A stretch of DNA of 64,000 nt, from positions 1 to 64,000 of the forward strand of contig RDOF01000005.1 of assembly GCA_011365025.1 (NCBI GenBank). Reading direction: 5' to 3'. The notes beneath the pieces were generated by a model. It searched no databases and was not told the origin of the DNA. It saw nothing but the letters and a program-made list of their open reading frames with translations. Positions 25,535-50,740 of this stretch are shown one piece after another. The translations under genes were made by a program, and so were the position numbers. The first letter of the stretch is position 1. Each line of letters begins with the position of its first letter. Origin of the DNA: Candidatus Thorarchaeota archaeon (GTDB taxonomy: Archaea > Asgardarchaeota > Thorarchaeia > Thorarchaeales > Thorarchaeaceae).

Positions 25535-25670
25535 GATTCCCTCAGTTCGATTGAAAAAAGGAAGGCGAATTTCTCGATTATATGCCTAGGAAATATCTAC
25601 AGATGAAAGAGCTTGAGCTGACTCTTGCCAGTTCAGATAGATGCACCGATTTCATTGACTTGAAATTGCC

Positions 25671-26852
25671 TCATTCATAGGCCATCTCAAAGATTTCCAG
25701 GGCCTCTTTCTCTTCGATTTTGCTCAGTGCGCCAACATTTCCAAATTCGGCCGTCTTTTCTGCCAAATACTTCAGTTTGTCCTTTTCAACACCCGCATCT
25801 TTCAGACACGTGGGTATTTTCAGACTCTGAATGAAATCGGTCAGTTTGACGATACCCTCTTCCGCGGCTTCAAAATCATCACTATTGACGACATCAAAGA
25901 CATTCCTCGCAAATGCTGCAAACATGTGGATGTGTTCGGGGGCATTTCTGATTGTGTATCTCATCCAAGAAGGAGTCAACACAGCCAGTGTCACACCATG
26001 CGTCATGTCGTATAGGCTTGACAATTCATGACCCATTTTGTGGATTGGAAAAGTGACCTTTGACTTTCCTAATGTGAACTGAGACCCTCCCAGAGCCATG
26101 CTGCTGGCCCACATTATGTTCGCTCGGGCATCGTAATCATCTGGATTCTTTAGAACCAATGGAGCGTTTTTTATCACAGCTCTCATCAAGCCTTCGTTCA
26201 TTCTGTCTTGGACTTCAGTAGAAGAATCTGAACTGAAATAGCACTCTATCGCATGGTTGAGAGCATCAAAACAGCCTGCCATCGAGTGCTTCTCAGGAAC
26301 TGAGTATGTGTAGGTTGGGTCCAAAATGGAGAACTTCGGGAATAATAAGGGGCTTGTAATTGTGAATTTTTTCTGATTTTCGCCTATAGAAATAACCCCT
26401 ATCATATTCAATTCGCTACCAGTTCCGGCCATGGTTAGAACCGAACCCAAAGGAGCAGCTTCCTCGATCTCTCTCTTCCATTCGTCCATCAAATCAACAA
26501 CATCCCCGCTATAAGGAACCCCTGCTGCGATTGCCTTGCAAGAATCTATAACGGAGCCGCCTCCAACGCCCAAAATGAAATCTAGGTTATTGGCTCTATA
26601 AAGCTCAATCCCTCGTTTTACGTCCTCAACTCGAGGATTTGGTTTGATGCCGCCACACTCAGTAAATTCGATATTGCCTTTTCTTAACTCATCAACGACC
26701 GCTTGATAGATTCCATTTCTCTTGATGCTTCCGCCTCCGTACACTAAGAGGACCTTGGCACCTCCATTTTCCTTGATTGCAGAGGCCAGATTCGCGATTT
26801 GGCCTTTCCCGAAATAGATCTTTGGGGGTATGTTGTAAACGAAGTTCTCCAT
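25671..26852 (-). CDS. Iron-containing alcohol dehydrogenase (BdhA/YqhD-like)
   Basis: 393 residues from the ATG at 26852, chosen because CAGGTGA lies eight bases upstream and the family starts here (MENFVYNIPPKIYFGKGQI); the frame is open to 26912. NAD(P)-binding GVGGGSVIDSCKAIA, GTGSELNMIGVIS and metal ligands in GCFDALNHAIECYFS and MTHGVTLAV are seen. It oxidises primary alcohols or reduces aldehydes with Fe2+ or Zn2+ at the active site. Similar to NADPH-dependent butanol dehydrogenases. Upstream is the AT-rich promoter region of the divergent membrane protein. Confidence 0.92.
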   Translation of the reverse strand: MENFVYNIPPKIYFGKGQIANLASAIKENGGAKVLLVYGGGSIKRNGIYQAVVDELRKGNIEFTECGGIKPNPRVEDVKRGIELYRANNLDFILGVGGGSVIDSCKAIAAGVPYSGDVVDLMDEWKREIEEAAPLGSVLTMAGTGSELNMIGVISIGENQKKFTITSPLLFPKFSILDPTYTYSVPEKHSMAGCFDALNHAIECYFSSDSSTEVQDRMNEGLMRAVIKNAPLVLKNPDDYDARANIMWASSMALGGSQFTLGKSKVTFPIHKMGHELSSLYDMTHGVTLAVLTPSWMRYTIRNAPEHIHMFAAFARNVFDVVNSDDFEAAEEGIVKLTDFIQSLKIPTCLKDAGVEKDKLKYLAEKTAEFGNVGALSKIEEKEALEIFEMAYE

Positions 26853-27056
26853 CTCATATTTCACCTGTTTCCTATGAAGCTGCGCAAGTATCAAACTGTG
26901 ACATAATTTCAATTGGACGAGGCAAAGCCAAGAATCAACTTAAATAGTTGGGGATTGAGGGGCAAGAAAAATGCGGTTTCATGGACAGACACGTCCAGAA
27001 ACATGACACGCGCCGCCCGGATTATCTTCGCAGTTGCAGTGCAGGGTAATTGGACA

Positions 27057-30734: not shown

Positions 30735-30957
30735 TCAGTTGAAGCCCTCAGGAGCGACGCTGGATACATATCCAGGAAATGGGTCATTTTCCTGAGCCAC
30801 CTGGAGAGAGCAATCAAGAAGAAACGAATGCTCTCTCCGGTACTCGAGAGTAGCCTTCGAAGTCGAAATGTGAACACATGATTTCGCAACTCAAACTCAA
30901 CAAGTTCCTCTGGCGTGCAAGAGAAACGAATTGGAAGTTTGTTGAAAAACGGAAGAA

Positions 30958-30985
30958 GAGCTGGCTGTCAACTGACTCCCAGCTC
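30958..30985 (-). terminator. Hairpin terminator of relic copy C
   Basis: On the minus strand GAGCTGG and CCAGCTC form a seven-base stem with an internal GTCA/TGAC pairing, followed by a T-rich run (TTCTTCCGTTTTTC). It lies just downstream of the relic at 31001-31041 and of the gene ending at 31053. Confidence 0.55.
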
Positions 30986-31000
30986 GCAGTATTCAAGGCC

Positions 31001-31041
31001 ACCTCATCGTCTTGATCTGTTCGTGGACGGGCGCGCAGAGT
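31001..31041 (-). pseudogene. Relic copy C of the DUF35 gene 3' end
   Basis: The minus strand encodes MKELCAPVHEQIKTMR, closely matching the C-terminus of the intact DUF35 gene (MKVLCAPVYEWVKSMK, 35492-36157). No upstream DUF35 sequence remains. It directly follows the stop of the membrane protein at 31053. Confidence 0.6.
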
Positions 31042-31052
31042 TCCTTCATGCG

Positions 31053-31418
31053 CTATTCCTCTTCAGCGATTGCTTCGTCGCCAGACCAGAGTGTCGTTAA
31101 TGCCCAGAGCACAATCATTGCAAAAGGCAGGTCAAGTAGCCCAAATGGATGAATGTGAGGCGCAACCGCCAAGGTAACGACTGATATGAAAATACCAAGG
31201 AGAATCCCGTTTCTCCTCTTCTTAGCAACTAGGTAGCCTGTCCCAATTCTGAAGGCTCCATACATTGCTCCAATCAGGGCCCAGAAAGCAGCATCCTCAG
31301 ATAGGCTCACGGGAATGAGTTCTGGCGGAAGTAAGAACATCGACATGGCAAGAATCTCAATGATGCCATGGACGAAGAGAGCGCTAGATGATATCTTGAT
31401 GTATGTAGATTTCTCCAT
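31053..31418 (-). CDS. Small four-helix membrane protein
   Basis: 121 residues with four hydrophobic helices (ALFVHGIIEILAMSMFLL, then AAFWALIGAMYGAFRIGTGYL, GILLGIFISVVTLAVA and LPFAMIVLWALTTLW) and an acidic tail (GDEAIAEEE). The ATG has a textbook SD (TTAGGAGGAAAAG). No motif recognised. Its stop is immediately followed by a decayed DUF35 C-terminus and hairpin, so it may have gained that 3' end by recombination. Confidence 0.7.
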   Translation of the reverse strand: MEKSTYIKISSSALFVHGIIEILAMSMFLLPPELIPVSLSEDAAFWALIGAMYGAFRIGTGYLVAKKRRNGILLGIFISVVTLAVAPHIHPFGLLDLPFAMIVLWALTTLWSGDEAIAEEE

Positions 31419-31739
31419 CTTCTTTTCCTCCTAAGGGGTATGCGAAGAAGTCTAATGTGTCATATCATTCCGGTGAATTGCGTGGGGCCTATGTTGCATA
31501 TGAACACTCCCCATTGTGTAAGAAGAGGCTAATTCTGGTCTTATACCGTCAAGAATCATGTCTGGGCATTGCCTCGTCTATTGGCTCTCATCTTATTGGT
31601 TCTCATCTTATTCAGAAACTACTGCACTTGGACGAACAGGAAGTTCGTCACGCAGACAAAGGTTACTCAGAAATGAGGAGTAGAATGCTTATAATCTCCC
31701 ACTGACAAGGGATAATCAATCCTTTGAACGTGGTAGACC
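31419..31739. repeat. Intergenic region with short direct and inverted repeats
   Basis: 321 bases without a convincing gene. ATTGG-TCTCATCTT occurs twice in tandem at about 31578-31608 (copies differ by one base). GACGAAC-AGGAA-GTTCGTC at 31631-31649 is a perfect seven-base hairpin. An 82-codon frame across the region has no SD and no domain pattern. Confidence 0.4.
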
Positions 31740-32210
31740 ATGGAAGACGTAACTGAACCTGACGAAGGGCATAGAAAGGAGAGTAAGCAAGAAGCAAGAT
31801 ACAAAATAACGAACATGGCCCTAGTGCTGGTTCTTGTCTACAACATGATACCCATGGCCTATTCTTTTGCCAGCCTACGTTTCGATATTTTCGCGATGAT
31901 AGTTCCCATGATTTTTCTTATCATTGATGTCATAATGATACTTGGCCTACTACTATATAGGAAGCACGAGAAAGAGATTATCCCATATTACCTCTTTATT
32001 CTTTCAGGACTGATTTTATCAATACTAGATATCCAAAGTCTGATTATTGTGGGAGACCAAGTGAAACCTTTCTTCTTCAGTCTATCTATCCCCATATTTT
32101 TCGTTGGCGTAGTATTGATGCTAAACAAATGGGAGCACGAAAAACCGCTCAATGAGTCTGACAACAACAGTCCTCATGCTATAGAGTCTCATTCTGGAGA
32201 GGACCTCTAA
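31740..32210 (+). CDS. Small membrane protein, function unknown
   Basis: 156 residues. A charged N-terminus (EDVTEPDEGHRKESKQEAR) is followed by four hydrophobic helices (residues 25-130) and an acidic, Ser/Asn-rich tail. No family recognised. It is the plus-strand member of a group of short membrane proteins in this unstable stretch. Confidence 0.6.
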   Translation: MEDVTEPDEGHRKESKQEARYKITNMALVLVLVYNMIPMAYSFASLRFDIFAMIVPMIFLIIDVIMILGLLLYRKHEKEIIPYYLFILSGLILSILDIQSLIIVGDQVKPFFFSLSIPIFFVGVVLMLNKWEHEKPLNESDNNSPHAIESHSGEDL

Positions 32211-32231
32211 ATCAGGCCGAGAAGGAATTTC

Positions 32232-32438
32232 TCAAGGTTGTATATTCATAGTCCTCCGTGTGTACACTATGAAGCCTAGCCCCAGAATGAGTGACAACAC
32301 TCCAAAGAATGTCCAATATAGAGAAGGTCCCTGAATATCTGTCAAATCCAAATTCGGCCCCCATATAATCAGAATGATGATTCCTGCAACTATTAGACAT
32401 GCTCCTTCTACAATGTTCATCTTGGCTCTTCGTTCCAT
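32232..32438 (-). CDS. Two-helix small membrane protein
   Basis: 68 residues from the ATG at 32438, a start supported by the conserved Met in the partial duplicate at 25491. After MERRAKM two hydrophobic helices follow (EGACLIVAGIIILIIWG and LYWTFFGVLSLILGLGFIVY) with a basic end (TRRTMN). The frame is open to a TTG at 32450. Function unknown. Its promoter and first 17 codons are copied near 25.5 kb. Confidence 0.65.
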   Translation of the reverse strand: MERRAKMNIVEGACLIVAGIIILIIWGPNLDLTDIQGPSLYWTFFGVLSLILGLGFIVYTRRTMNIQP

Positions 32439-32511
32439 AATCCTGACCAACCCCCATTAAGCCATTTTCAACTATATTTGTCATTCCTAAGCTTGATGGA
32501 AAATGAGAGTG

Positions 32512-32540
32512 GAGCTGGCAGCGGAATGTGCTGCCACCTC
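32512..32540 (-). terminator. Hairpin terminator of relic copy E
   Basis: On the minus strand GAGGTGGCAGC pairs with GCTGCCAGCTC over eleven positions with one mismatch and a seven-base loop, followed by a T-rich segment (CTCATTTTCC). It lies 16 bases downstream of the relic at 32556. Confidence 0.55.
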
Positions 32541-32555
32541 ATTCATTGTGTGCAA

Positions 32556-32583
32556 CTATTTCATGGTCTTGACCCATTCGAAA
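32556..32583 (-). pseudogene. Relic copy E of the DUF35 gene 3' end
   Basis: The minus strand encodes FEWVKTMK and a stop, matching the last residues of the intact DUF35 protein (YEWVKSMK). Nothing of the gene remains upstream; a plus-strand methyltransferase begins at 32653. Confidence 0.5.
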
Positions 32584-32652
32584 TTCCTCGATTTACGTTG
32601 TTCGAAGGATTGATGTCTAGGAAGAATCCAAAATCCCTTGAGGCAACCTTAG

Positions 32653-33438
32653 TTGATAGCAGACATACCTGATGGACTTAGAGGGTCTGGTGCAATCGAA
32701 GTCGGAGAAAAACTCGGAACCATCTCTGGCGGAGACATCCTTGATGTAGGGACAGAAGAGGGGGACTTCATTAACACGTTGATGAAAACTCTGGGGGGAT
32801 ACAATTCATTCGTAGGAATAGACATCTCAGCAGATGACTTGAGGAAAGCAAGAGAGCAATTCAAAGACGCTCCAGTGGATATGATGGAAATGAATGCTGA
32901 AAAGATGTCATTTCCAGACAATCATTTTGATACGGTGTGCATCTCGTATTCAATCCATCACTTGGAGAATATTGACGCTGTACTAGCTGAGATGCATCGC
33001 GTGTTGAAACCCGGAGGCAATTTCATTATCCAAGAATTGTATTCTGATGGAGAACAGACTGAAGCTCAGCGTTTGGACAGGGATGTGCATAATCTGAATG
33101 TAAGGATCGATACCATCTTAGGCATCCCTCATTTCGAGGCTTTAACTCGTCAGAGATTGAAAGACTCAGTCAACAAGATTGGTCTGAGTGCTGTAGAAAT
33201 TTATGAGTCCTCATGGCCTGTCAAATGCCTATTCTGTGAAGATGCATCCGATTGTGAAAAGCCACTCAGAAAGGAGAATGTCGACTTAGTAATAAAGGAG
33301 GTTGATGCTGATTTGGCTCGAATAATTGATCATCCGTCTTATGATGAATTAAGAGAAGAGGGAGAATCAATCAAAGAGAAAGTCAAAGTTACAGGGTCAT
33401 CTGCAGCATCAGTGATGTATTTCTTCGGAACTAAGTAG
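32653..33438 (+). CDS. Class I SAM-dependent methyltransferase
   Basis: 261 residues starting at TTG. The Rossmann-type methyltransferase core is clear: ILDVGTEEGDFINTL (motif I, with Thr-Glu in place of the usual Gly-Cys-Gly), FVGIDISADDLRKA, MNAEKMSFPDNHFDTV, SYSIHHL and RVLKPGGNFIIQE. The C-terminal part (residues 170-261) is helical with four cysteines (CLFCEDASDCEKP) and may hold the acceptor site. Substrate unknown. No partner gene is in the same direction nearby. Confidence 0.87.
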   Translation: MIADIPDGLRGSGAIEVGEKLGTISGGDILDVGTEEGDFINTLMKTLGGYNSFVGIDISADDLRKAREQFKDAPVDMMEMNAEKMSFPDNHFDTVCISYSIHHLENIDAVLAEMHRVLKPGGNFIIQELYSDGEQTEAQRLDRDVHNLNVRIDTILGIPHFEALTRQRLKDSVNKIGLSAVEIYESSWPVKCLFCEDASDCEKPLRKENVDLVIKEVDADLARIIDHPSYDELREEGESIKEKVKVTGSSAASVMYFFGTK

Positions 33439-33553
33439 GGTCAAGATGAAACCCAAGCCAGTGCTTCTAAGGTTTCATGCCATGAGTTGCATGAATTTCT
33501 CTAGCATGGAAAAGATACAGAGTGGGCTTTTGAAGAAGAATAAGGGAGAGAAG

Positions 33554-33573
33554 GGGAAGAGATCCATCTTCCC
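33554..33573 (-). terminator. Hairpin terminator of relic copy D
   Basis: On the minus strand GGGAAGA and TCTTCCC form a perfect seven-base stem with a six-base loop, flanked by GAG/CTC and followed by a pyrimidine-rich run (CTTCTCTCCCTTATTCTTC). It lies 17 bases downstream of the relic at 33591. Confidence 0.5.
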
Positions 33574-33590
33574 GCTCGTTCAGTATGGAA

Positions 33591-33608
33591 TCACTTCATC
33601 GTTTTGAG
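33591..33608 (-). pseudogene. Relic copy D of the DUF35 gene 3' end
   Basis: Only LKTMK and a stop can be read on the minus strand, the shortest of the copies. On its own it would be unconvincing; the matching hairpin at the same spacing supports it. Confidence 0.35.
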
Positions 33609-33679
33609 GCGTCCATCCCAAATTACTCAAGTTTAAGTGAGGACTATAATTTCATTTTTGCCCTAGAGGTGGAAATATC

Positions 33680-34564
33680 TTGAACAGGGGGTCTGAACCA
33701 TCTTCGGAAGCAAGCATAGTAACAAATAACAAATCGATAAAGAATGGATTACTATTCATCCTCTTCACAGGCGCAAGTTTTCTTGCATTCAATATTGGAG
33801 GATACAACAATTTCATTCCCTCTGAATTGAGACTAGTCGTGAGGATAATCGTAGCTAGTATTCTGTTTCTATCAACCATTATTCTCTACAAGACAGAGAG
33901 AAGCTGGAACAAGTACTGGCAGATATCATATGCATTGCTAATATCATCAGTTGGATTAGTTCTTGCAGGATTCTTCGGAAATTGGCACACACTCATCCCA
34001 GGACTTTCGTTAAGTACTGTCGAAGGAGTTTCTATTGCAAAGGTAGCAGAGGTTATCCCTATAGTTGTTACAATTCTCATTGGCACATGGTTGGTTGAAA
34101 GAGATTTCACTCCAATCTTCTTACGTGGAGGAGATCTCAATAAGACTTTGAAAACAGGTCTTATCGTTTCCCCTGTTGCGCTGATACCATTTTTTGCACT
34201 TGGCGGATTGGGTCTCTCTGTCGGTCTAGATGTGATTTTCGCATGGTTGCCTTGGATGTGCATTTTTGGTTTTAGCAATGCATTCATGGAAGAACTGATG
34301 GTCAGGGGTTTATTCCTGAAGAAGTATAATGCAATGTTTGGGAAAAATATATCACTACTTCTAACATCGGTGATTTTTGCATTGCTCCATCAGGCAATTA
34401 TCGAGTATACGGACCCTGTAACATTTACAATCTTTTTACTAGTCACGTTTCTCTTGGGCATATCATGGGGATACGTTATGCAGAAATCTGATAGTATCTG
34501 GGGTGCAGTTCTGGCCCATGCAATTGCGGACATGCTTTTCATCATTACAGTATTTGGAGTATGA
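33680..34564 (+). CDS. CPBP family intramembrane metalloprotease
   Basis: 294 residues starting at TTG with GAGGTG nine bases upstream. About eight transmembrane helices. The CPBP (CAAX prenyl protease/bacteriocin-processing) motifs lie in the last third: MEELMVRGLFL (EExxxR), FALLHQAI (FxxxH) and LAHAIADML (HxxxD). These form a membrane-embedded metal site. Such proteins trim prenylated CAAX proteins, handle bacteriocin immunity or have unknown targets; no CAAX substrate is visible here. Confidence 0.88.
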   Translation: MNRGSEPSSEASIVTNNKSIKNGLLFILFTGASFLAFNIGGYNNFIPSELRLVVRIIVASILFLSTIILYKTERSWNKYWQISYALLISSVGLVLAGFFGNWHTLIPGLSLSTVEGVSIAKVAEVIPIVVTILIGTWLVERDFTPIFLRGGDLNKTLKTGLIVSPVALIPFFALGGLGLSVGLDVIFAWLPWMCIFGFSNAFMEELMVRGLFLKKYNAMFGKNISLLLTSVIFALLHQAIIEYTDPVTFTIFLLVTFLLGISWGYVMQKSDSIWGAVLAHAIADMLFIITVFGV

Positions 34565-34586
34565 TTTACAGAAAAAGAAGAAGAGT

Positions 34587-34612
34587 GAGCTGGAGTCAGT
34601 AACTCCCAACTC
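34587..34612 (-). terminator. Hairpin terminator of relic copy B
   Basis: On the minus strand GAGTTGGGAGT pairs with ACTCCAGCTC (one bulge, two wobble pairs), followed by CTCTTCTTCTTTTTC. It follows the relic at 34627 and lies downstream of the minus-strand DinB-like gene. Confidence 0.55.
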
Positions 34613-34626
34613 ATTTTCATTCGGAG

Positions 34627-34677
34627 TTATTTCATCGTCTTGACCCATTCGTAGACTTGAGCAGAGTTTCTTCATGC
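34627..34677 (-). pseudogene. Relic copy B of the DUF35 gene 3' end, frameshifted
   Basis: The minus strand encodes MKKLC in one frame and YEWVKTMK-stop in another, so a small deletion separates two matches to the intact C-terminus (MKVLCAPVYEWVKSMK). It lies directly downstream of the DinB-like gene ending at 34744. Confidence 0.6.
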
Positions 34678-34743
34678 CAAGCATCATACTCTTTCTGAGG
34701 AGGAGTTCATTCCTGGCGACCAGCATGGTATAACCTGAGGATT

Positions 34744-35244
34744 TCAATCGTTCAGGGGAACACCATAGTATGTCCTCATACTTACAGGAGCACCTGCAAG
34801 TTTCAGGTACATCCACAACTGCATTTTGTGCATTGCTAGATGAGTTGTGATCTCCGGGATATAATGAGCCCAACTCTTTGGTGGCCCTTCTAGATCGAAT
34901 GGCTTCAGACTGTTCTCCGTAAGCTGATCGTCGGAGAGCTTTGAAATGAATTCATGAATAGTCTCCATCCCTTTGTCATAGAGTGCAAGCAGTTCATCAA
35001 TCGTGTCCCTACGAAGCTCCTTTTCCATTGCATGGACTTCTTCAAAGTCATCGAATTGCATTGAGCAGAACTTTAGGTCAATTGTTGGGATTTCAGCCAA
35101 ATGATTCATCAAATCAATCAAAGAACGCATTTCATCTGAGGGTTTGAAATTAAGATCAGAACCTATAGCGGCCGCCATGACAAATCTAGTTTGACGACTC
35201 TCGTGATCTATCATATCTAGTAGTATCTTACAAACTGGACCCAT
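34744..35244 (-). CDS. DinB-like four-helix protein
   Basis: 166 residues from the Met at 35244, which aligns exactly with the start of the paralog at 50240; the frame is open to 35286. A four-helix bundle with DinB-type His residues: MNHLAEIP in the second helix and the C-terminal HYIPEITTHLAMHKMQLW. The last 35 residues are almost the same as in the paralog (MHKMQLWMYLKLAGA). DinB/YfiT proteins bind divalent metal and often act as thiol-dependent transferases; the reaction here is unknown. Confidence 0.78.
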   Translation of the reverse strand: MGPVCKILLDMIDHESRQTRFVMAAAIGSDLNFKPSDEMRSLIDLMNHLAEIPTIDLKFCSMQFDDFEEVHAMEKELRRDTIDELLALYDKGMETIHEFISKLSDDQLTENSLKPFDLEGPPKSWAHYIPEITTHLAMHKMQLWMYLKLAGAPVSMRTYYGVPLND

Positions 35245-35437
35245 GTCTAGTACCATGCGACTACAAACCGAACAGGTACTTGACAATTACGCTCGTTTTG
35301 TGCGAGAGTAGTTGATGTAGCATTTTCAATCAAATCAGCGAGTGTCCTCAATGCCCAACCATCCAGATTTGGCCGTTAGAATGCCGCTTGTTACTGGGGC
35401 CGAGGAAGAAAAAGATACCAAGTGGAAATTTGACTGG

Positions 35438-35478
35438 AAAAAATTGGTTGAGCGGAGGAGTATTGTACTCCTCAGCTC
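35438..35478 (-). terminator. Intrinsic-like terminator of the thiolase-DUF35 operon
   Basis: On the minus strand GAGCTGAGGAGTA pairs with TACTCCTCCGCTC (13 positions, one mismatch, three-base loop at 35463-35465), then a run of six T at 35443-35438. It lies 14 bases after the DUF35 stop. The relic copies elsewhere carry the same arrangement. Confidence 0.7.
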
Positions 35479-35491
35479 CTTCATCCCGAAG

Positions 35492-36157
35492 TTACTTCAT
35501 CGACTTGACCCATTCGTATACGGGTGCACAGAGGACCTTCATGCGCTCCTTCTCTTCGTTCATGGGTCCTGGCTTCCAGTCATCGGCTGGCTCGAACCAC
35601 CAATCGGTGACGGTGCCCTGCCGCTCCTTCTTTGGCTTCCAGACCACCTTCACTGGCATGCCATACTCAGCATCCCAGGGGTCTAATCCCCTAAGCTCGT
35701 TGGCAATCGCAGTCTTGTAGCCATCGACGATGACGTAGGCTAGAACGAAGGGCAGACGCTTCAGAGAGCTCTTTCCGCTCCATCCTGCAATGGTGAAGGT
35801 ATGGACAATGCCTTTTTCCTCTAGCTTGATCCAATCGCTCTTCTCAAGATTGCAATCAAGGTTCCAGCAGTTGACTCTTGGCGGGAAGAACTTGTCCTTG
35901 CACTTTGGACACCGGGTGCCCCAGAACTCGCCATCGACAAAGCCCTTACCAAGCTTGGAAACCTCCGCATACTTCCAGTAGTATAGCTGGTCGTAGTGAA
36001 GATAGACCTTGAACTGCTCCTCCTTGCTGTCCCAGTCGTAGCCCATGAAACCGATACCGGTCTCTTTGACATCGCCACGGAACTCATCCGAGTGCTTATC
36101 GTCCCACTCGACATCGTTGTGTCCGGGAATCTTGTGCATTCTCTTGTCCTTGGTCAT
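35492..36157 (-). CDS. DUF35 (zinc-ribbon plus OB-fold) acyl-CoA-binding protein
   Basis: 221 residues. A long N-terminal extension is followed by the DUF35 domain: a zinc ribbon (CPKCKDKFFPPRVNCWNLDC, about residues 98-117) and an OB fold (GIVHTFTIAGWSGKSSLKRLPFVLAYVIVDG). DUF35 proteins partner with thiolases; in the archaeal acetoacetyl-CoA thiolase/HMG-CoA synthase complex the DUF35 subunit bridges and holds CoA. Here it begins two bases after the thiolase stop, so the pair is co-translated. Its C-terminus (MKVLCAPVYEWVKSMK) is the source of the relics between 31 and 34.7 kb. Confidence 0.9.
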   Translation of the reverse strand: MTKDKRMHKIPGHNDVEWDDKHSDEFRGDVKETGIGFMGYDWDSKEEQFKVYLHYDQLYYWKYAEVSKLGKGFVDGEFWGTRCPKCKDKFFPPRVNCWNLDCNLEKSDWIKLEEKGIVHTFTIAGWSGKSSLKRLPFVLAYVIVDGYKTAIANELRGLDPWDAEYGMPVKVVWKPKKERQGTVTDWWFEPADDWKPGPMNEEKERMKVLCAPVYEWVKSMK

Positions 36158-36159
36158 CT

Positions 36160-37437
36160 CTATGGCCTCCTCAGAATGAAGTTCGAGATACTAGTTCCAG
36201 TACCCGCATGTGAATTGACAAGACCTGTGTTTGCGTCCTTGACGTAGGTCTTGGAGCTCAAGTGCTTCTTCGGCGCGGTGTCATTGAGATGCATCATACA
36301 CTCGACAGCGCTCATGATCCCGGTGGCTCCGACAGGGTGGCCGTACCCCATCAAACCACCTCCCACATTGGTAGGAACTTCACCATCAAGGAATGACTGC
36401 TTGTCGCGCATGAACTCCTTGACATTCTCAGTGGTGCACCAATGGAGTGCCTTGTAGATTTGGACCTCTGAGGAGCTAAAGGCGTCGTGAATCTCAGCAA
36501 CGTCAATCTCCTTGGCGGCACGCTTGTACTCGATACCAGCCATGTCATAGGCGTCCTCGCCGGACTTCCTGCAGGCACCAAACTCGGTCATGTCGGGGTA
36601 ACCTTTTCCATACAACTCATTCCAACCAGGGAAGTCAATACGGTCTCCGGCCCGAATGGTACAGGAGCTAAGGCCAGCACCTGCAATCTCAACATAGGTG
36701 TCCGGAGCATGCTTCTTTGCCCACTCCTCGCTAGTGACGAGAGCGAAGGCACCACCACGGCTCATCAGGCAGCAGTCCAGCTTCTTGAGCGGGTAGCTGA
36801 TGAGACGGCTCTCCATGACATCGTCGACAGTGAGCTCCTTCTTGTAGTAGGGCGACTCTGGATTTGTATAGTCGCTCCTGTAGAACTGCGCCTTTGGGTT
36901 GTCTGCTGCATAGTTCCTGTTCTTCATTGCAGCAAGGGCGAAGTCCTCCTCGGTGAGGCCGTTCTCTTTCATGAATTTGTACGCCATTGCCGCATAGTAA
37001 ATGGGATAGATGCCGCCTGCCAGTGCCTCGTACCTTGTGTCTGAGGCCAGGGCGATGAACTCGCTACCCTGCGATTGGGTGACGTTGTCCATGGTTTCCC
37101 AGCCGTAGACACCGACGACATCGAAGAGCCCAGATTTTATCGCCATGAAGGCACCGTAGAGGGCTGAGCCTCCGGTATTTCCACCGTTCTCTATTCGCAC
37201 GTGGGGCAGTCCGACTAACCCAAGGTGATCATGTACGACCCACTCTGGGCACAGCTGCTTACCGAAGTGTACTGAGAAATGCGAATATACCATAAACTGC
37301 AGGTCTCTGAGCGTAAAATCAGGAATGTCCTGTTGCAGTTCCACAATACAATTAGCAGCCATTGCCTCTGGCGTTATATGCATGGGGTAGTCGAAGGGAG
37401 TTGCACTGCCACCTGCGATGCACACTTTTCGACTCAT
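36160..37437 (-). CDS. Thiolase-superfamily protein lacking the usual nucleophilic Cys
   Basis: 425 residues of the SCP2-type thiolase group. Conserved regions include VRIENGGNTGGSALYGAF, SRGGAFALVTSEEWAKK, EIHDAFSSSE and NVGGGLMGYGHPVGATGIM (the GHP His). The segment that normally reads N-x-C-A-S-G has no Cys here (ENGGNTGG), and none lies nearby. The C-terminal region HAGTGTSISNFIL also lacks the second Cys. It therefore may not form the acyl-Cys intermediate; it could bind acyl-CoA, act as an aldol-type partner or have another nucleophile. It is the first gene of a two-gene operon with DUF35. Confidence 0.85.
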   Translation of the reverse strand: MSRKVCIAGGSATPFDYPMHITPEAMAANCIVELQQDIPDFTLRDLQFMVYSHFSVHFGKQLCPEWVVHDHLGLVGLPHVRIENGGNTGGSALYGAFMAIKSGLFDVVGVYGWETMDNVTQSQGSEFIALASDTRYEALAGGIYPIYYAAMAYKFMKENGLTEEDFALAAMKNRNYAADNPKAQFYRSDYTNPESPYYKKELTVDDVMESRLISYPLKKLDCCLMSRGGAFALVTSEEWAKKHAPDTYVEIAGAGLSSCTIRAGDRIDFPGWNELYGKGYPDMTEFGACRKSGEDAYDMAGIEYKRAAKEIDVAEIHDAFSSSEVQIYKALHWCTTENVKEFMRDKQSFLDGEVPTNVGGGLMGYGHPVGATGIMSAVECMMHLNDTAPKKHLSSKTYVKDANTGLVNSHAGTGTSISNFILRRP

Positions 37438-50239: not shown

Positions 50240-50740
50240 GTGCCAACCTTCGCAGAAGTCTTAGTAGAAGCTTTCGAACATGAGGCAAAACAGGCTAGAT
50301 TCGTGTTGTCAATAATAGAAGAGGACCAGATGGAGTTCGTCCCCAAGGAAGGAATGCGTTCACTACGAAATGTTGCCAACCACCTAGCCCAGATACCTCG
50401 TCTCGATATCAGTTTCTTCACAAAGGAGATTGAGAAAATCGAACAAGCACAGGAGATGGAAAAGAAACTCACAAGGAATACTCTAAAGGAAATGCTTGAG
50501 GTCTTTGACGATGGGGTTGAATACCTCACCTCGCATTTCGAGAGCATGAGTGACGAGGAGTTTTTCAAGGAGTGCCTGTGTCCCTGCTACTCCCAAGGGC
50601 CTGACAGAAGCTGGGCATACTACCTTCCCGAGATAACAAGTCACATGGTCATGCACAAGATGCAGCTTTGGATGTATCTGAAGCTAGCAGGTGCAGATGT
50701 TAATATGATGACGTACTACGGAATTGGCGGGCAGGGGTAG
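50240..50740 (+). CDS. DinB-like four-helix protein
   Basis: 166 residues starting at GTG with GGAGATGGCGG upstream. It is the close paralog of 34744-35244: both carry FEHEAKQARFV or DHESRQTRFV in helix 1, the VANHLAQIP His, and the C-terminal MHKMQLWMYLKLAGA. DinB-type metal-binding proteins include thiol-dependent transferases and isomerases; the activity here is unknown. It converges on the kinase-aminotransferase fusion with two bases between. Confidence 0.8.
   Translation: MPTFAEVLVEAFEHEAKQARFVLSIIEEDQMEFVPKEGMRSLRNVANHLAQIPRLDISFFTKEIEKIEQAQEMEKKLTRNTLKEMLEVFDDGVEYLTSHFESMSDEEFFKECLCPCYSQGPDRSWAYYLPEITSHMVMHKMQLWMYLKLAGADVNMMTYYGIGGQG

Follow-up and report, generated by a model that had tools for sequence, protein, structure and literature searches.

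Several described systems accumulate DNA behind a gene end or a short repeated site. Integrative and conjugative elements (ICEs), integrative and mobilizable elements (IMEs) and cis-mobilizable elements (CIMEs) undergo accretion by tandem insertions at gene 3' ends, the end being repeated at each boundary. In integrons, the attC core has the consensus RYYYAAC and GTTRRRY, the cassettes lie mostly in one orientation, and the integrase IntI is not required for the related clusters of attC sites lacking integrases (CALINs). Both integrons and CALINs have been reported in Asgard archaea (PMC9668308, in excerpt). The effector-immunity arrays of the type VI secretion system (T6SS) of Vibrio are explained by sequential effector displacement, with homology-facilitated illegitimate recombination as the suggested process, and Rhs loci are cited alongside them for their strings of orphaned 3' regions (PMC5361080, in excerpt). 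By this kind of recombination, one-sided homology can insert unrelated DNA; circularised linear DNA can also integrate by single crossover (PMC3240628, in excerpt). Here we describe an array in a 64,000-nucleotide stretch of the genome of a Candidatus Thorarchaeota archaeon (GenBank assembly GCA_011365025.1, contig RDOF01000005.1, positions 1 to 64,000; the whole stretch is referred to as the window). In it, an intact gene coding for a DUF35 protein is followed by a same-strand string of displaced 3' ends of that gene, an arrangement found where the gene is present. The copied unit comprises a truncated DUF35 3' end and its terminator and, at some copies, also the 3' end of a convergent gene, here called Y. 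The copies sit between unrelated neighbours and mark spots where gene order differs among genomes, and they look like joints between exchangeable gene modules. No published description of such an array was found in the literature searched, subscription papers and preprints lying outside its scope.

Flanks and distribution of the displaced gene ends

The examined loci hold 59 displaced copies, five in the window and the others in 18 of the 47 genomes of the class of G001 (G001, G003, G004, G005, G010, G023, G024, G025, G027, G028, G029, G030, G031, G034, G035, G037, G043 and G045). Together with nine intact gene ends they form an aligned set of 68 units; the count of 59 includes two neighbouring copies with the same flanks in G023 (5978 and 6081), a truncated gene in G010, and copies on the G004 contigs C30 and C124, which are possibly misbinned.

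The main evidence lies in the flanks of these copies. We compared 600-nt flanks, usable for 55 of the 59 copies, between genome pairs that are homologous and in register on at least one side. Both neighbours of a displaced copy were kept in none of 21 such pairs, which are not independent of each other (11 kept the left side only and 10 the right side only). At gene gaps without a copy in the same loci, both sides were kept in 57 of 121 pairs (Fisher p against the copies 1.2e-5), the figure being 44 of 54 for same-strand gaps (p 2.1e-11) and 8 of 26 for opposite-strand gaps (p 0.006); even the strictest control, opposite-strand gaps within the arrays, retained both sides in 7 of 18 pairs (p 0.002). 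Many pairs of a looser count, which admits intact gene ends and short matches, represent the DUF35 gene or short remnants of Y; in that count 58 pairs agree on the left alone, 50 on the right alone and 2 on both sides. Were the copies inert remains within a gene order that drifts, some pairs should keep both neighbours; since none of the 21 pairs does, the copies mark breaks in the shared gene order. This supports the original prediction, made from the window alone, of recombination at the gene end and its terminator.

In seven chosen pairs the switch occurs at the copy itself, with an identity of 0.74-0.87 on the shared side and 0.51-0.63 on the other, shuffles giving 0.52-0.56. Moreover, four copies unite modules that are found separately elsewhere, namely unit B of the window (DinB/CAAX), G003:3420 (ATC hydrolase/TPR), G027a:4460 (a 240-aa open reading frame, ORF/ATC hydrolase) and G031:4616 (TPR/Y remnant). 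The left flank of unit B is held in common with G029 and the right flank with G001 and G031, and the left-flank comparison shows that the DinB module and the start of the copy after it are common to the window and G029. For the ATC hydrolase, DinB and TPR modules, the junction with the following copy is constant despite a different right neighbour, and for the TPR, methyltransferase, HepT and CAAX modules, the terminator and right side are constant while the left side differs. The spacing from module to copy is also equal across genomes: 75 nt for the TPR module (G003, G031) and 52-53 nt for the ATC hydrolase module (G003, G028).

The distribution of the unit was assessed with the profile R1, a sequence-only model since RNAalifold, applied to the MAFFT alignment A2, gave no consensus structure. 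R1 matches in 35 of the 47 class genomes; matches outside the 59 copies include G002:C204 (E 2.9e-6) and weak ones in G016, G018 and G019. Under the stricter filters of both genome searches, 65 candidates were scored per genome in the class and 13 per genome in the phylum, whose 227 genomes gave single matches only where they fall outside the class. In the first loci the significant copies are found behind DUF35 and share its strand (most of these loci include only about 2 kb upstream), and the genome searches put nearly all strong matches in these arrays, which disfavours the freely dispersed element that had been one of the options entertained. Eight of the 13 related loci lie in metagenome-assembled genomes (MAGs) of Candidatus Thorarchaeota. 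A DUF35 match at E<=1e-40 is lacking in 11 of the 18 copy-bearing genomes, some of which incomplete MAGs may explain. Where the gene is present in G007, G008, G012, G016, G021, G022, G038 and G039, there is no further significant copy in 9.8 to 17 kb downstream, and G006 has no copy in 7.4 kb behind DUF35; the loci of G002, G032, G015, G009 and G019 end about 1 kb or less behind the gene, so that absence there says little.

A same-locus scan of 380 gene ends in 395 kb, based on automatic ORF sets with spurious frames included, yielded no second clear case besides DUF35, and hence such repeats are not a general habit of gene ends, each end having been compared with its own locus only. Its other results included second views of the known copies from a neighbouring gene, paralogous genes, strong repeats on the Thermoplasmata contig L011 and a case in L002 (E 4.5e-9). 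The gene at L007:578-1111 has a weak same-strand copy of its end 0.8 kb downstream, at 1944-1995 (E 7.9e-5; 75% identity over 52 nt), which may point to a further acceptor gene or be a chance match. For viral carriers of the gene end, one exact pattern gave no match across viral contigs. Separately, assemblies break within the DUF35 3' end in G006 (contigs C71 and C134) and G031 (contig C158), as if the population had several near-identical gene ends.

The array of the window and its convergent partner

The window contains the intact operon and six units, the first being the end of the intact gene. The features are given below from the operon outwards; the R1 E-values are for 64 kb, and the rows of R1 include the gene end of unit A and units B, D and E themselves.

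36160..37437 (-): thiolase-like gene, 425 aa (Pfam Thiolase_C_1, E 1.5e-24), the upstream partner of DUF35
35492..36157 (-): intact DUF35 / ChsH2 C-terminal OB-fold gene, 221 aa (PF01796, E 1.9e-6, and relatives), the source of the repeated 3' end
35438..35589 (-): unit A, 3' end of the intact gene with stop codon, hairpin and T tract (R1, E 3.6e-27)
35411..35431 (+): putative C-terminal remnant of convergent gene Y, KDTKWKF (tblastn E 4.3, too short for significance alone)
34744..35286 (-): DinB-like gene (Pfam DinB_2, E 3.9e-5; 24.5 bits, slightly below the Pfam cut-off of 24.8)
34575..34707 (-): unit B, displaced copy joining the DinB module to the CAAX module (R1, E 1.6e-21)
33680..34564 (+): CAAX protease (Rce1-like) gene, a module also present in G001 and G031 (Pfam Rce1-like, E 1.7e-16)
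33539..33607 (-): unit C, displaced copy truncated about 17 nt before the stop-codon end (R1, E 2.4e-4)
33472..33531 (+): remnant of the gene Y C-terminus with an in-frame stop (tblastn E 3.2e-5)
32653..33438 (+): S-adenosylmethionine (SAM) methyltransferase gene of a family also found in G034, G029 and G006 (Pfam Methyltransf_11, E 3.2e-23)
32500..32592 (-): unit D, displaced copy with hairpin, its left flank also present in G027 (R1, E 3.9e-12)
32232..32450 (-): small ORF between units D and E, 72 aa, without Pfam family
31740..32210 (+): ORF between units D and E, 156 aa, without Pfam family
31053..31418 (-): ORF between units D and E, 121 aa, without Pfam family
30946..31074 (-): unit E, displaced copy (R1, E 4.5e-20)
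30884..30949 (+): remnant of the gene Y C-terminus (tblastn E 0.001)
25603..25721 (-): unit F, additional weak displaced copy at the end of the gene 25671-26912 (-) (R1, E 2.1e-6)

The four decayed minus-strand copies that had been proposed from the window are all recovered by the profile of the gene end (E 1.6e-21 to 2.4e-4), and their nucleotide similarity exceeds chance; nor was the other refuting pattern seen, the same sequences kept in place in relatives that never had DUF35 there. A profile built from intact gene ends only likewise finds units B, E, D and C (E 2e-19, 4.6e-19, 1.2e-9 and 4e-4 for 295 kb), and plain blastn of the gene end finds B, E and D (E 3.3e-8, 7.8e-10 and 0.009); chance similarity as the source of the copies is ruled out by the E-values of both kinds of search. 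Unit C (33539-33607), which plain blastn of the DUF35 gene end does not recover, is supported because G034 has the same terminator and right side. The reading MKELCAPVHEQIKTMR comes from the copy at 30946-31074, unit E, and had been misplaced to a copy labelled C. Unit F, which is not a row of R1, overlaps with its left part the coding end of another gene, 25671-26912, presumably alcohol-dehydrogenase-like to judge by its sequence; as it lies about 10 kb from DUF35, the array may extend over more of the window than first reported. Some of the scars, as we call the truncated gene ends, carry stops or frameshifts. The window contains no tRNAs, and no Rfam family matches at E<=0.1 over its 25-38 kb part.

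A remnant of Y lies on the opposite strand at three of the six window units, A (weak), C and E, and tblastn with the Y C-terminus gave no match at units B or D. The full-length gene codes for 194 aa (L045:3044-3625, minus strand) and is arranged tail to tail with DUF35 in genome G032. The presence of Y beside the copies and its convergence on DUF35 in G032 together indicate that two convergent gene ends and their junction make up the repeated unit, with variable truncation on both sides. Y matches no Pfam family, and a protein search with it gave 23 proteins including itself, of which two bear names that tell their group, Odinarchaeota and Promethearchaeota. Longer, diverged Y matches occur on other contigs, e.g., G037:C104 and G005:C80. 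A long target-site duplication, which predicts a Y remnant that grows steadily with distance from DUF35, is rejected on the pattern in the window.

The genes between the copies are accessory genes on both strands, including CAAX proteases, methyltransferases, DinB, TPR and LRR proteins, GNAT acetyltransferases, HepT/nucleotidyltransferase pairs and PIN domains, and several of these families recur across the arrays of different genomes in differing order. They had been described as unrelated short genes; unrelated they are, though not all short, with lengths that include 294, 261 and 180 aa. Defence cargo is not the rule: 23 PADLOC models matched, each in at most 4 of 110 ORFs. The window has two DinB-like genes of opposite strand 16 kb apart, at 34744-35286 (-) and 50240-50740 (+), and their ends have 74% identity over 113 nt.

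Proposed formation and spread of the array

We propose that the old end of DUF35 remains as a scar when DNA is added at the 3' end of the gene, and that new gene and scar then spread by homologous recombination, a reading to which we assign a probability of roughly 0.5. The mechanism is a proposal from sequence comparison, no insertion or recombination event having itself been observed. The locus downstream of the thiolase-DUF35 operon would be a site of new gene addition, at which incoming DNA would join at the 3' end of DUF35 without disrupting that gene, and the former 3' end of the resident gene and its terminator would come to lie beyond the new gene as a scar. Gene and scar were probably first joined in a rare illegitimate event for which homology in the operon served as anchor. 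Spread to other strains might then proceed by ordinary homologous recombination, presumably with a role for RadA, the operon serving as the left arm and the scar, pairing with the recipient's DUF35 end, as a short right arm. The outcome would be a chain of accessory genes separated by scars that act as crossover points, and the terminator part probably persists by still ending the transcription of neighbouring genes. The constant module-copy junctions and constant right sides fit an insertion between DUF35 and its own end whose crossover lies within the copied end. We favour homologous recombination of gene ends with scars, begun by a rare illegitimate joining, because of the shared junctions, the third-codon-position differences and, weakly, the scores of the copies against the gene ends.

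Those scores were obtained for genomes with a sequenced gene. For only 2 of 21 displaced copies does the gene end of the same genome score highest, and for 19 of 21 the end of another genome scores higher, with about twenty candidates, short stretches and small margins; the pattern is weakly in line with a resident gene end that arrived with the insert, or with later drift of the gene. Third codon positions account for 11 of 18 differences between G003:3420 and G031:3688 and 10 of 17 between G003:3420 and G028:5351, and for only 8 of 21 between unit B of the window and G029:11506. This suggests, for two of the three tested copy pairs, that the ends may have diverged as coding sequence before displacement.

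Four genomes bear upon the fate of the operon itself. No canonical DUF35 reaches E<=1e-40 in G023, G034, G035 and G043. These genomes have distant DUF35 paralogs that lie upstream of a 3'-end copy of the canonical type; the paralogs adjoin this copy in G023, G035 and G043 and are 545 nt away from it in G034. Two distant thiolases accompany those paralogs in G023, G034 and G043, and the gene upstream of the G034 paralog operon belongs to the same family as a gene that precedes the canonical operon in the window, in G001 and in G002. The arrangement reads as an operon that would have been replaced in place, its old gene end left as a scar. Hence, of the duplication or replacement of a DUF35 gene envisaged in the original prediction, replacement has apparent counterparts in relatives; simple duplication of the resident gene fits less well, in view of the own end being top for 2 of 21 copies and of the array loci showing, at E<=1e-3, no trace of a thiolase or of the 5' part of DUF35.

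Several observations weigh against addition at the gene end followed by homologous spread. Scars of 17-100 nt are short for homologous recombination, and 54 of the 59 copies begin no more than 120 nt before the stop, a clustering not expected from random illegitimate joining. The best match to a genome's own gene over at least 40 nt is 94% over 50 nt (G005:5354), and no recent insertion with an identical long scar, or any very recent event, was seen among the copies; a short one, G001:4335, matches its own gene without a difference over 22 nt. Similarity to the gene is highest in the farthest copy of G005, contrary to a strict youngest-nearest order, and a strict age order of the copies is rejected there. 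The Y remnants appear and vanish irregularly along the window array, and Y-like matches also occur on contigs without a known copy. Finally, MAG contigs are possibly misbinned or misassembled, and the dependence among the 21 pairs counts on the same side.

Going further, and only tentatively, the array might be a cassette system without a dedicated recombinase or encoded site. The 3' end and terminator of a metabolic gene would be the acceptor, regenerated by each insertion, and the old acceptor would become a portable homology arm, such that modules (toxin-antitoxin pairs, proteases, methyltransferases) might circulate between strains much like integron cassettes. An integron attC site as the repeat itself was rejected: both core sites on the unit strand were found in 0 of 68 units, with 1.2 expected from shuffles, which here as for the hairpins below preserve base composition only, the count covering the core sites and not the full attC fold.

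Site-specific integration would hold that small elements or ICE-like islands entered at the DUF35 3' end by means of an integrase that restored the gene end, leaving attR-like copies as the elements decayed in a CIME-like accretion. It would account for the intact gene, the 3' end repeated behind the insert, the single orientation, the clustering of breakpoints near the gene end and the restriction to one gene among the 380 ends scanned in their own loci. The copies themselves make it doubtful, as they have no common core (G005:5354 spans -66 to -16, and unit C of the window begins at -17). Of the recombinases, the two families PF00589 (tyrosine) and PF00239 (serine) gave no match on any array contig of the 17 genomes searched, namely 16 of the 18 array genomes (G035 and G045 being the other two) and G006. 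Each family is present in 5 of these 17 genomes and neither in 11 of 17, with positive controls in 14 of 14 (PF00589) and 10 of 14 (PF00239) reference genomes. No integrase appears among the 25 commonest of the 150 Pfam families of the neighbouring ORFs (110 of 120 listed; rarer families fall outside this view). As a separate observation, G043 (L070) has eight tyrosine-recombinase matches, and 12 of the 17 searched genomes have none.

We also regard as improbable a plain sequential displacement by homology-facilitated illegitimate recombination, in which each scar would be an independent one-sided junction with no later cassette-like spread. The left ends of the copies vary from 17 to 160 nt before the stop-codon end (the alignment reaches no farther than 160 nt; the median is 56), as this would predict, and the variation excludes a single fixed crossover point. 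The apparent operon replacement in G023, G034, G035 and G043 and the published analogy of the Vibrio T6SS arrays (PMC5361080, in excerpt) speak for it too. Independent junctions, however, would not be expected to give the same module-copy junction with different right neighbours, as seen for ATC hydrolase, DinB and TPR.

It is very unlikely that the whole operon was replaced or duplicated again and again and then eroded, with selection retaining only the terminator and adjoining bases: the downstream hairpin is at or above 95% of shuffles in stability in 28 of the 59 displaced copies, and a few internal DUF35 fragments exist (residues 118-177 in G031 and 104-152 in G004c), but the array loci lack the thiolase and 5' DUF35 remnants, a copy may be short and still match closely (94% over 50 nt), and the equal module-copy spacings in different genomes indicate that erosion is not progressing there. 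The G031 fragment lies at L062:15787-15966 (-), with 90% identity, away from any 3' end.

The array among known systems

Asgard archaea are a lineage often placed near the origin of complex cells, and to our knowledge the gain and shuffling of accessory genes in them are poorly known. If the scars are crossover points, they preserve in readable form the succession of gene gains at a single chromosomal site, and, if the proposed mechanism is true, a cassette-like array would have arisen from plain recombination at a gene end instead of from an integrase. The one-sided-homology test is simple and can be applied to any genome set to seek other acceptor genes.

In comparison with ICE, IME and CIME accretion, the array shares the tandem insertions at the 3' end of one gene and the repetition of that end at the boundaries, but the array contigs have no PF00589 or PF00239 match and the copies no constant core. 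With the integrons and CALINs, as they are described in PMC9668308 (in excerpt), it shares single-gene modules parted by a short hairpin-capable repeat, with shared modules in different orders. In contrast to integrons, the genes of the array lie on both strands, no PF00589 integrase is found beside it, and the repeat derives from the end of a coding gene. Homology-facilitated illegitimate recombination has been described in bacteria, and for these archaea it is a proposal.

A close likeness in arrangement is to the Vibrio T6SS and Rhs loci, as far as the excerpt of PMC5361080 describes them: one intact gene at a fixed place followed by displaced older 3' parts, DNA added on the 3' side, and mosaic arrays. 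Here, however, the anchor is a metabolic OB-fold gene beside a thiolase, the cargo consists of unrelated accessory genes, and the host is an Asgard archaeon. Moreover, the scars are not functional genes, and the repeated piece mostly comprises 17-120 nt and a terminator.

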